A stretch of DNA of 64,000 bases from Solimonas aquatica. GTDB taxonomy: Bacteria > Pseudomonadota > Gammaproteobacteria > Nevskiales > Nevskiaceae. The notes below the pieces were generated by a model. That model ran no database searches and was not told the DNA's origin. It worked only from the letters and a program-made list of their open reading frames with translations. The position numbers and the translations under genes are program-made. Below are positions 25,236 through 38,838 of the stretch, piece after piece. Numbering within the stretch: the first letter of the stretch is position 1; every line of letters begins with the position of its first letter. Location: assembly GCF_900111015.1 (NCBI RefSeq), contig NZ_FOFS01000005.1, positions 124,001 to 188,000 on the forward strand. The letters run 5' to 3'.

Positions 25236-25320
25236 AGGCGGATTCGCGAGTGTCGTCCTGACCCGCACGTCGCCGCCTCGAAGACAGGCGGCGAGTGCCA
25301 AGTCCGAAGCACTCTTCAAG

Positions 25321-25350
25321 CCCCGGCCTCAAAACCGGGGTTTCGTCGTT
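25321..25350 (+). terminator. Attenuator-like hairpin between rpsU and yqeY
   Basis: CCCCGG (25321-25326) pairs with CCGGGG (25335-25340), extended by flanking bases, and is followed by a T-rich stretch. It may stop most rpsU transcripts while letting some continue into yqeY-dnaG-rpoD, as in E. coli. Confidence 0.6.
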
Positions 25351-25378
25351 TCTATCGATCTCACCGGAAGCCATCGCC

Positions 25379-25825
25379 ATGTCCGATCTCAAGACCCGCA
25401 TCAGTGAAGACGTCAAGACCGCCATGAAGGGCGGCGACAAGGCACGCCTGTCGGTGCTGCGCATGCTGCAGGCCGAGCTCAAGCAGCGTGAAGTCGTGGA
25501 GTCCATCGAGCTGACCGATGCCGTGGTGCAGGCGGCGGTGGAAAAGATGATCAAGCAGCGCCGCGATTCGGAAAGCCAGTTCCGCGCCGGCGGCCGTCCC
25601 GAACTGGCCGACAAGGAAGCCAGCGAAATCCAGCTGCTGATGGCCTATCTGCCGCAGCAACTCAGCGCCGAGGAAGTGGACGCCCTGATCGTGCAGGCCA
25701 TCGCCGAAACCGGCGCCGCCGGCGGCAAGGACATGGGCAAGGTCATGGCCTGGATCAAGCCCAAGGCCCAGGGCCGTACCGACATGGGCAAGCTTTCCGG
25801 GCTGATCAAGGCGAAGTTGAGCTAA
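25379..25825 (+). CDS. yqeY: GatB/YqeY domain protein
   Basis: A 148-aa protein of the YqeY family, which resembles the tRNA-binding tail domain of GatB. Recognisable parts are LKTRISEDVKTAMKGGDKARLSVLRML, EIQLLMAYLPQQLS and GKDMGKVMAWIKPKAQGRTDMG. It sits between rpsU and dnaG, its usual place. The role in translation is inferred from the family and remains loosely defined. Confidence 0.93.
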   Translation: MSDLKTRISEDVKTAMKGGDKARLSVLRMLQAELKQREVVESIELTDAVVQAAVEKMIKQRRDSESQFRAGGRPELADKEASEIQLLMAYLPQQLSAEEVDALIVQAIAETGAAGGKDMGKVMAWIKPKAQGRTDMGKLSGLIKAKLS

Positions 25826-25882: not shown

Positions 25883-27673
25883 ATGGCCGGCCGGATTCCA
25901 GACGCCTTCCTTCACGACCTGCTCGCGCGCACGGATATCGTCGAGCTGATCGGCGCGCGCGTGGAACTCAAGCGCGCCGGCAAGGAATTCAAGGGCCGCT
26001 CGCCGTTCACCAACGAGAAGACGCCGTCCTTCTTCGTCTCGCCGCAGAAGCAGATGTTCTTCGACTTCTCCTCCGGCAAGAGCGGCACGGCGATCACCTT
26101 CCTCATGGAATACGACCGCCTGGGTTTTCCCGAAGCGGTGGAAGAACTGGCGCGCCGCGCCGGCGTGGAAGTGCCGCGTGAAGGCGGCAATGAGCCGCGC
26201 GTGGTGGTGGACGGTCCGCTCGACGCCCTGGCCGCCGCGCAGCGCTTCTTCACCGAGCGCCTGCGCCACGCCCCGACCGCCATCGAGTACCTGAAGAAGC
26301 GCGGCGTCAGCGGCGAGACCGCCAAGCGCTACGGCATCGGCTATGCGCCGGACAGCTGGGATGCGCTCACGCAGTTCCTGCAGAACCAGCGCCACGCCCT
26401 GGACGCCGGCCTGCTGATCGAGCGCGAGGGCAGCTCGGGGGTGTATGACCGCTTCCGCAACCGCGTGATGTTCCCGATCCGCGATACGCGCGGCCGGGTG
26501 ATCGCCTTCGGCGGCCGCACGCTCGCCAATGATCCGGCCAAATATCTGAACTCGCCGGAGACCGTGCTCTTCCACAAGGGCCGCAATCTCTATGGCCTTT
26601 ATGAAGCGCGCAGCGCCAGCACGGCCGCGCTGCCGTACCTGATCGTGGTCGAAGGCTATATGGACGTGGTGATGCTGGCGCAGTACGGCGTGCGCGAGGT
26701 GGTCGGCACCCTGGGCACCGCCACCACGCGCGAGCATCTGCAGCTGATCTTCAAGTCCACCGCCAAGGTGGTGTTCTGCTTCGACGGTGACCGCGCCGGC
26801 CGCGCCGCCGCCTGGCGCGCCCTGGAGCAGGTGCTGCCGGAAATGGCCGACGGCCGCGAGTGCGTGTTCATGTTCCTGCCCGAAGGCCAGGACCCGGACA
26901 CCTATGTGCAGCAGATCGGCGCCGAGGCCTTCCGCCAGGAAGTCGAGCGCGCGCAGCCGCTCTCCCAGTTCCTGCTCGACGCCCTGCTCAAGCAGGCCAA
27001 TGTCGGCAGTCTGGAGGGCCGCGCCAAGCTGCTGTCCCTGGCCAAGCCGCATCTGCAGCGCCTGCGCGCCGGCACCCTGCGCACCCTGCTGATCGACGAG
27101 CTGGGCCGGCGCATGCGCCTGAGCCGCGAGGACATCGAAGCCAGCCTGGGCAGCGAGACGCCGGCCGCCGCTGCAGCGCCCGCGCCGGCAGGCAAAACGC
27201 CGGAGCAGCTGCCGGTGTCCGCCAAACCGGTGCGGCGTGCCCTGCAGCTGCTGCTGGAAAAGCCCGAGCTGGCCGACCGCGTCGGCAATGTCGAGCTGCT
27301 GCTGCAATCCGAATTGCCAGGCCTGGAGTTCCTGCTGGAGGTGGTGGATTTCTTCCAGCTGCACCCGGGCGCGCGTGCCGCGCAGCTGCTGAGCTTTCTG
27401 GGCGAGGGCAAAAAAGCCGATGCCATCAGCCGCGTGCTGGCTTCCGACCTGAACGATCCGCAGCTGGGTCCCACGCTCGCCGCGAAAACCAGCGACGAGG
27501 CCGTGGAGCGGGAATTTCTGGACGTTCTGAACTATCTAAATGATCAGGCCCTGGCCGCCCGCCGCCGGCAGTTACAGGCCAAGGCACAGGACGGCAGCCT
27601 GAGCGAACCCGAGGCCCGTGAATGGCGGGCCCTGGCCGAGCGGACGCGTGGCTCTGGAAAATCGCCGCGCTAG
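25883..27673 (+). CDS. dnaG: DNA primase DnaG with degenerate zinc finger
   Basis: A 596-aa primase that makes RNA primers at the replication fork. The N-terminal CHC2 domain aligns without gaps to E. coli, but all four zinc ligands are changed: C40 to S40, H43 to T43 (RSPFTNEKTPSF) and C61, C64 to D61, S64 (FFDFSSGKSGTA). The catalytic core looks intact: RVMFPIRDTRGRVIAFGGR, the TOPRIM Glu in VVEGYMDVVML and the acidic DGDRAGRAAA. The C-terminal DnaB-binding domain follows a Pro/Ala linker near residue 430. It is surely the only primase of this cluster, so it must function without this zinc site. Confidence 0.97.
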   Translation: MAGRIPDAFLHDLLARTDIVELIGARVELKRAGKEFKGRSPFTNEKTPSFFVSPQKQMFFDFSSGKSGTAITFLMEYDRLGFPEAVEELARRAGVEVPREGGNEPRVVVDGPLDALAAAQRFFTERLRHAPTAIEYLKKRGVSGETAKRYGIGYAPDSWDALTQFLQNQRHALDAGLLIEREGSSGVYDRFRNRVMFPIRDTRGRVIAFGGRTLANDPAKYLNSPETVLFHKGRNLYGLYEARSASTAALPYLIVVEGYMDVVMLAQYGVREVVGTLGTATTREHLQLIFKSTAKVVFCFDGDRAGRAAAWRALEQVLPEMADGRECVFMFLPEGQDPDTYVQQIGAEAFRQEVERAQPLSQFLLDALLKQANVGSLEGRAKLLSLAKPHLQRLRAGTLRTLLIDELGRRMRLSREDIEASLGSETPAAAAAPAPAGKTPEQLPVSAKPVRRALQLLLEKPELADRVGNVELLLQSELPGLEFLLEVVDFFQLHPGARAAQLLSFLGEGKKADAISRVLASDLNDPQLGPTLAAKTSDEAVEREFLDVLNYLNDQALAARRRQLQAKAQDGSLSEPEAREWRALAERTRGSGKSPR

Positions 27674-37794: not shown

Positions 37795-38838
37795 ATGCCC
37801 CAGCTGCCCGCCGCCCCGGAAATGACCCGCGCCTATCTGGCTTCCGATGCCAGCTATGACGGCGTGTTCTACCTGGGCGTGAAGACCACCGGCATCTTCT
37901 GCCGGCCCTCCTGCCGCGCGAAGAAACCCTTGCCGCGCAATGTCGAATTCTTCGCCACGCCCAGGCAGGCCAGCTTCGCCGGCTACCGTCCCTGCAAGCG
38001 CTGCCGGCCGCTGGAAGCGCCGGGCAAGCCGCCGGCCTGGGCGGCCCAGCTGATCGAAGCCATCGAGCGCGATCCGGGCACGCCGATCCGCGAATATCAG
38101 CTGCGCGCCCGCGGCCTGGACCCGGCACGCGTGCGGCGCTTTTTCCAGAACCATTACGGCATGAGCTTCGCCGCCTATTGCAGAGGACGTCGCATGAGTA
38201 CCGCCTTTCATGACATCCGCCAGGGCCATCGTGTCGAGGACATCGCCCTGGGCAGTGGCTTTGCTTCGGCCAGCGGTTTTCGCGCCGCCTACGGCAAGAC
38301 CTTCGGCGACGCACCGGGCAAGGCGACGGCGGAGCCGATCCGTCTGGCCTGGCTGGACAGCCCGCTGGGCCCGCTGGTGGCGGCGGCCAATGATCAGGGC
38401 CTGCTGCTGCTGGAATTCACCGAGCGGCGCATGCTGGACAAGCAGTTCGACGCGCTGCGCCGGTATTTCGGCTGCGCCATCGTGCCGGGCGAACATCCTT
38501 ATCTCACGCAGATCCGCCGCGAGCTGGACGAATACTTCGCGGGCCGGCGCCGCGACTTCGACGTGCCGCTGGTGTATCCGGGCAGCGAGTTCCAGCGCTC
38601 GGTGTGGCGTGCGCTGCTCACGATTCCCTACGGCCAGACCTGGTCTTACGAAGCGCTGGCGCAACACGTGGGCCGCGCCGGCGCCTGCCGCGCAGTGGGC
38701 ACCACCAACGGCCTGAACCGTCTGGCCATCGTCGTGCCCTGCCACCGCGTGGTAAACAAGAGCGGCAAGCTCGGCGGCTACGGCGGCGGCCTGTGGCGCA
38801 AGCAGCGCCTGCTGGAGCTCGAAGGCGTAACGCTCTGA
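37795..38838 (+). CDS. ada: Bifunctional Ada methyltransferase/transcription factor
   Basis: A 347-aa DNA-repair protein and regulator of the adaptive response. The N-terminal zinc site has C36, C40 (FCRPSC), C67 and C70 (RPCKRC), with C36 the phosphotriester methyl acceptor. An AraC helix-turn-helix follows (about 85-170, VRRFFQNHYGMSFAAY, IALGSGFASASGFRAAYGKTFG). The C-terminal O6-methylguanine domain has the acceptor C316 in IVVPCHRVV. Unlike DnaG and GmhB here, it has kept all its zinc cysteines. Confidence 0.96.
   Translation: MPQLPAAPEMTRAYLASDASYDGVFYLGVKTTGIFCRPSCRAKKPLPRNVEFFATPRQASFAGYRPCKRCRPLEAPGKPPAWAAQLIEAIERDPGTPIREYQLRARGLDPARVRRFFQNHYGMSFAAYCRGRRMSTAFHDIRQGHRVEDIALGSGFASASGFRAAYGKTFGDAPGKATAEPIRLAWLDSPLGPLVAAANDQGLLLLEFTERRMLDKQFDALRRYFGCAIVPGEHPYLTQIRRELDEYFAGRRRDFDVPLVYPGSEFQRSVWRALLTIPYGQTWSYEALAQHVGRAGACRAVGTTNGLNRLAIVVPCHRVVNKSGKLGGYGGGLWRKQRLLELEGVTL

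Follow-up and report, generated by a model that had tools for sequence, protein, structure and literature searches.

The closest known counterparts of the gene considered here are the standard bacterial DnaG primases, such as E. coli DnaG (b3066), with zinc-domain structures 1d0q and 2au3, and passages in two papers credit the zinc domain of these enzymes with template reading (PMC6163395, PMC10557236). Departures from zinc binding are known elsewhere. Metazoan Twinkle is described, in part of one paper, as having lost the zinc cysteines of its primase-type domain (PMC3610141), and a section of another treats zinc-free paralogues of ribosomal proteins and DksA in the Zur regulon as zinc-independent members of zinc-binding families (PMC6103462). 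In the open-licence PubMed Central literature we found no description of a zinc-less DnaG; a subscription paper may well mention one. Here we describe such a protein from Solimonas aquatica, encoded in a stretch of 64,000 nucleotides (contig NZ_FOFS01000005.1, positions 124,001 to 188,000 of assembly GCF_900111015.1), which we call the window. Sequence comparison and structure prediction suggest that this zinc-less DnaG is probably the working replicative primase of its genome, in which the zinc staple would have been replaced by a metal-free polar core.

Judged by its sequence, the window DnaG is ordinary in all but its metal site. It is identified by Pfam profile matches to the translated 596-residue open reading frame (ORF), where the CHC2 zinc finger profile (PF01807) scores 97.5 bits against a cut-off of 24.9 and DNAG_N, Toprim and DnaG_DnaB_bind all exceed their curated cut-offs. 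With standard DnaG it shares this domain set, the N-terminal fold, the Toprim residues and the tsaD/rpsU/dnaG/rpoD neighbourhood. The gene lies upstream of rpoD, as a DnaG-type replicative primase should, and behind genes that we take, by recognition, to be tsaD, rpsU and a yqeY-type gene, an order that was compared with E. coli. The acidic Toprim residues E257, D261, D301, D303, D337 and D339 are present, and all six are kept in 41/41 zinc-less rows of the 125-row set used for comparison across classes. The protein is thus unlike Twinkle, an inactive primase in which the primase motifs and activity were lost together with the zinc ligands. What differs is the metal site. At the positions of C40, H43, C61 and C64 in E. 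coli MG1655 DnaG (L194) the window protein has Ser, Thr, Asp and Ser, and the zinc-knuckle residue Gly63 and Ala66 are replaced by Ser and Lys. It is therefore a CHC2 protein by sequence family and fold that lacks the C-H-C-C ligands. The sequence-only reading of this DNA had reported the four replacements, a gap-free alignment and conserved catalytic motifs, and all three hold; there is no gap against E. coli DnaG in the motif region.

The replacement extends through the family, which we identify as Nevskiaceae from named relatives such as Solimonas and Hydrocarboniphaga. Our census covered 58 genomes, and a chromosomal-type dnaG could be read in 54 of them, the source genome included (G055, G071 and G072 gave no match, G060 only mobile-type primases, and the second matches G049:C6 and G023:C87 were not read as primases). 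In 53 of the 54 the gene is zinc-less, so an assembly error is excluded and the change, which the sequence-only reading had proposed to look for in related genera, is clade-wide. Among 112 DnaG proteins read, 53 are zinc-less and 59 are CHCC. The former comprise the window, its family and the nearest-ranked related loci, titled Solimonas, Sinimarinibacterium, Hydrocarboniphaga, Nevskia, Panacagrimonas, Polycyclovorans, Fontimonas and similar, with a few odd titles, and identical proteins are shared between family genomes and loci bearing those genus names; the latter include 16 same-order and 43 other gammaproteobacterial or betaproteobacterial loci. In a search of 41 genomes the main PF01807 match reached 100-116 bits in 25 own-family genomes and 131-141 bits in 16 same-order genomes of five other families, a difference explained by the ligand residues of the proteins themselves. 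We considered the PF01807 score as a proxy for zinc loss and rejected it: it fits within the family (100-122 bits for zinc-less rows, 134 for the zinc-form L112), but across classes CHCC rows score equally low.

The lone exception in the family is genome G065 (L112, L156), whose CHCC dnaG is flanked by a yqeY-type gene and rpoD. Its RpoD is 76-79% identical to that of six family members, 66% and 62% to two same-class outgroups and 47% to that of E. coli, so we regard G065 as a genuine family member. Genus code g11 holds both this CHCC gene and an STDS form (L157, G020); the catalytic cores of L156 and L157 are 56% identical and the RpoD proteins of the two genomes 77%, and either the genus may be unnatural or dnaG may have evolved fast there. 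Primases with the look of mobile elements and CHCC ligands also occur in the family, L153 (G047:C33, 1002 aa) alongside the zinc-less chromosomal L130, and L151 and L152 (462 and 880 aa) in G060, where no chromosomal form was seen.

The residues that replace the ligands are few. The 53 non-identical zinc-less family proteins show the patterns STDS (32), STCS (12), SSCS (5), SSDS (3) and STDA (1) at the ligand site. By position, they have S40 and S63 throughout, S64 in 52 (A in one), K66 in 48, T43 in 45 and S43 in 8, and D61 in 36 and C61 in 17. C40, H43, C61, C64 and G63 stand in 39/39 zinc-form rows, L112 included, and A66 in 37 of them. A further 22 zinc-less rows from outside the family, where zinc-less was defined by S40, have C61 in 10 and D61 in 12, S63 in 20 and A63 in 2, and S64 in 20 with one A64 and one T64. 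Taken together, no third residue occurs at site 61 in 75 zinc-less rows. A change from Cys (TGY) to Asp (GAY) takes two base changes, and at least 7 changes at this site are required within the family. The trees disagree on the ancestral state: the catalytic tree gives D, whereas the N-terminal tree has C61 forms at its base. Outside the ligand site, E35 is found in 41/41 zinc-less against 29/83 zinc-form rows, and position 66 is K or R in 34/41 zinc-less rows against K in 5/83 zinc-form rows.

The possibility of a second, standard dnaG, raised by the sequence-only reading, is not borne out. In the source genome, an assembly of 31 contigs with 98.4% completeness, PF01807 and PF08275 each match once, and the best match to Prim-Pol, at 12.3 bits, lies below the cut-off. 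Zinc-free paralogues of the Zur regulon are second copies, whereas the zinc-less dnaG is the only copy found, with no zinc-binding counterpart in this nearly complete genome. The comparison nevertheless raises the question whether DnaG is one sign of general zinc saving in the family, since zinc-free ribosomal proteins and DksA are, according to the same section of PMC6103462, a known response to zinc shortage. We consider this quite unlikely. Two other proteins, a small sample, were checked and both keep their cysteine sets: RecR of the source genome (L320 1492-2091) has an intact CxxC...CxxC, and Ada in the window (37795-38838) has C36, C40, C67 and C70, cysteines that in both cases we presume to bind zinc. 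DnaG is moreover a low-copy protein, so little zinc would be saved. A loss of the RecR zinc finger was itself a candidate, as PF02132 had no match in the genome, and was dropped when a full-length RecR profile found the intact gene. The 21-position PF02132 profile misses an intact zinc finger here, which advises caution with absence calls from short profiles.

The sequence-only reading held that such a primase is rare in Gammaproteobacteria. This stands for the class, in that among the same-class genomes read the form is confined to Nevskiaceae, every zinc-less dnaG among them belonging to the family. A profile made from 15 zinc-less domains matched 346/369 genomes of the class; among the 30 matches listed were the window's own locus, zinc-less, 28 CHCC proteins and one truncated before position 40. 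Of 20 further low-scoring class genomes 19 could be read, 18 as CHCC and one as CCCC (in this 30-handle reading set L240 and L253 were not extracted, L252 is partial and L254 is a false frame). The CCCC protein, L238 (G633), has Arg at knuckle position 63 and is the sole row of the 125-row set that is neither CHCC nor S40. Rarity does not extend to the phylum, because Alphaproteobacteria carry zinc-less forms. In other classes of Pseudomonadota 20/70 genomes were zinc-less (6/10 and 14/60, with three of the set of 10 not fully readable), which is not a frequency because the 70 were chosen by hand, on family and low score, out of a 398-genome sample. They fall within a 60-row group of the 125-row catalytic tree (support 99) that also contains the named Alphaproteobacteria Methylobacterium, Sinorhizobium, Sphingomonas and Tistrella. 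Methylobacterium bullatum (L315) has SNCS with an RpoD ORF downstream, and Sinorhizobium meliloti, Sphingomonas parapaucimobilis and Tistrella mobilis have CHCC. The alphaproteobacterial zinc-less proteins resemble the window DnaG in S40, C or D at 61, S63, S64 and the Toprim residues, but differ in their separate origin by the catalytic tree and at site 43, which is mostly N, T, Q or K. L264, L281 and L265 have Lys at 43 in zinc-less variants (S-K-C with A63-S64, or with S63-T64) and are possibly further separate losses.

The Bacteroidota, named by the sequence-only reading as a parallel, do not provide one in the Bacteroidales-type genes read; Alphaproteobacteria are the closer match. All five Bacteroidales-type dnaG genes are CHCC, namely those of Prevotella (L178), Bacteroides finegoldii (L183, adjoining aromatic amino acid genes and folE) and the unverified faecal records L179-L181, and so are the primases of a Porphyromonas phage (L182) and a Persicobacter plasmid (L184). 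Transfer from Bacteroidota was rejected on the Bacteroidales-type genes, a scope in which flavobacteria are represented by viral contigs only and not by chromosomes. Zinc-less primases do occur in phages. The proteins of Flavobacterium phages laban6-1 and 1H (S-V-D-S and S-T-D-S are the forms found in Flavobacterium phages), Cellulophaga phage Ingeline_1 (S-V-C-S) and Caulobacter phage Sansa (STCS) share S40, T or V at 43, C or D at 61, S63 and S64 with the window DnaG; those of the Flavobacterium and Cellulophaga phages differ in being longer (at least 922 aa) and are 41-46% identical to it in the N-terminal domain. With these we group zinc-less primases on IMG/VR contigs, where 13/13 loci are zinc-less in a set biased by the use of PFTNEKTP as one search peptide. 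Four IMG/VR primases of 732-872 aa (L166-L169) combine SPFTNEKTPSF with DFSNS in place of DFSS, and are by their sequence zinc-less forms whose second knuckle is one residue longer. Three records from the plasmid collection, L183 (NZ_OY725947.1), L178 (NC_022111.1) and L316 (CP090106.1), bear housekeeping-like dnaG regions and may be chromosomes or chromosome pieces.

The zinc-less proteins do not share one origin in their catalytic domains. In the 125-row tree (without L240, L242, L251, L254 and any row no longer than 500 aa) the zinc-less label changes nine times, four of them forced by starred branches; the outgroup is not one side of any branch, two rows being misplaced. A single origin of all 41 zinc-less rows is rejected on the catalytic domain (approximately unbiased (AU) test, p 3.2e-7). 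For the 22 rows from Alphaproteobacteria and phages a single clade is not rejected (p 0.194), so we claim at least two origins, which these alignments show, rather than nine; more than two are likely. The shared route is S40, C or D at 61, S or A at 63, S, A or T at 64, and retained Toprim acidic residues. Alphaproteobacteria and phages most likely lost zinc separately by the route taken in the family: C40, H43 and C64 would go together with G63S, and C61 would stay as a free thiol or become Asp.

How might such a domain work? A structure predicted solely from zinc-less sequences retains the fold of the zinc domain (1.0 A to 1d0q), and the N-terminal domain has invariant residues that are common to zinc-less and zinc forms. 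We suggest that the domain retains its zinc-ribbon fold and conserved residues, and that a polar core would take over from the zinc that staples the two knuckles, with hydroxyl side chains at 40, 43 and 64 surrounding an acceptor at 61, always Asp or Cys, and Ser in place of the knuckle Gly63. Template recognition and primer hand-off would take place on the surface that serves other DnaG proteins. We infer that the domain holds no metal, that its core is hydrogen-bonded, that priming is normal and that the template is still read, the last being expected from the kept fold and invariant residues. The question raised by the sequence-only reading would then be how the template is recognised without the zinc ion, and not how this is done without the zinc domain. 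The main rival is that the primase is active while its zinc-less domain, having lost the ion of the part credited with template reading, no longer reads the template, so that the catalytic domain and DnaB would choose the start sites and priming would depend less on sequence. A domain that had lost its function would be expected to drift, and this one is not drifting by its column conservation, which matches that of the zinc forms (median column entropy 0.31 bits for residues 1-100 against 0.98 bits for the whole protein). With the predicted fold also kept, we consider such loose priming unlikely. The site might instead still bind a metal. This could be zinc, held by C61 or D61 together with further residues, or a harder metal with oxygen ligands, for which D61 with Ser and Thr could serve. 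Such binding seems very unlikely to us, as three of the four ligands would be weak Ser or Thr, site 61 switches between Cys and Asp, two residues with different metal preferences, and in the other lineage site 43 varies freely.

Several observations weigh against a working primase with a metal-free polar core and a repeated route to it. Site 43 in the 22 non-family rows is N in 8, T in 6, Q and K in 3 each, and G and A in one each, a variability that does not fit a strict four-residue cage. The raw counts agree with a co-change of K66, E35 and S63 with zinc loss, but four independent pairs cannot give significance. Two of five AlphaFold models have a mean pLDDT (predicted local distance difference test) below 80, and AlphaFold, which models no metal, may predict the zinc-type fold even where the protein requires zinc. 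The catalytic-domain tree of the family (built without identical rows, some of the outgroup loci and the partial L014, L099 and L113, of which L113 is represented by L158) unites the 53 zinc-less rows with L112 at support 100, yet in the free tree L112 falls among the zinc-less rows, next to L144 on long branches. Finally, for the N-terminal domain alone, with alphaproteobacteria added, one clade of all zinc-less rows is not rejected (AU p 0.321). This last result and the recurrence of the same residues in Alphaproteobacteria and phages would suit a zinc-less N-terminal domain recombined from an alphaproteobacterium or phage onto a gammaproteobacterial catalytic domain. Such a transfer into the family is disfavoured, and we hold it to be decidedly unlikely, from the neighbours of L112. 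In the N-terminal tree without the four ligand columns, the CHCC L112 is sister to all zinc-less rows (split support 86), followed by the gamma-like L158 (STCS) and then the rest, so that these two are nearest at the base and the zinc label needs one change; with alphaproteobacteria added, the rows nearest to L112 are still family members and the same-order L003. Forcing the 53 zinc-less rows together without L112 in the catalytic tree gives p 0.69 and a likelihood above that of the quick free tree. Within the family, zinc was thus most likely lost once and in place, as the trees suggest. The positions of the features are collected in the table.

Table. Features of the dnaG region, in window coordinates
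Feature	Position	Strand	Basis
dnaG, zinc-less DNA primase, 596 aa	25883..27673	+	ORF and profile matches
N-terminal zinc-ribbon-fold domain, residues 1-100, ligands lost	25883..26182	+	profile, alignment, structure model
Codon 40 Ser (TCG), ligand Cys position	26000..26002	+	codon reading
Codon 43 Thr (ACC), ligand His position	26009..26011	+	codon reading
Codon 61 Asp (GAC), ligand Cys position; Asp or Cys in every zinc-less row counted	26063..26065	+	
Codon 63 Ser, zinc-knuckle Gly position	26069..26071	+	alignment columns
Codon 64 Ser (TCC), ligand Cys position	26072..26074	+	codon reading
Catalytic part, residues 122-416: DNAG_N, Toprim, DnaB_bind	26246..27130	+	profile matches
C-terminal DnaB-binding domain, residues 450-584	27230..27634	+	profile match
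yqeY-type neighbour gene, start unsettled	25295..25825	+	ORF; name by recognition and gene order
rpoD neighbour, downstream of dnaG as in E. coli	27758..29650	+	

What is distinctive is the orderly, repeated loss of zinc along one route in the only dnaG copy found. We see about an even chance for the following reading: zinc staples the fold, can be replaced there and takes no working part in priming; it was lost at least twice, and probably more often, from single-copy chromosomal dnaG genes along a single recurring route (C40S and C64S together with G63S, followed by a long-lived Cys/Asp switch at 61); and the metal-free ribbon left behind would still read the template. A protein named as a CHC2 zinc finger need not contain zinc. 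The repeated route offers a concrete set of substitutions for abandoning a metal site, with the Cys/Asp switch at 61 as a specific clue. Since nearly all Nevskiaceae and, separately, other lineages lost the zinc ligands by the same route, it becomes possible to test directly whether DNA priming needs zinc, and primases without the ion but otherwise complete let the fold-holding and template-reading roles be separated with the essential enzyme uncrippled.
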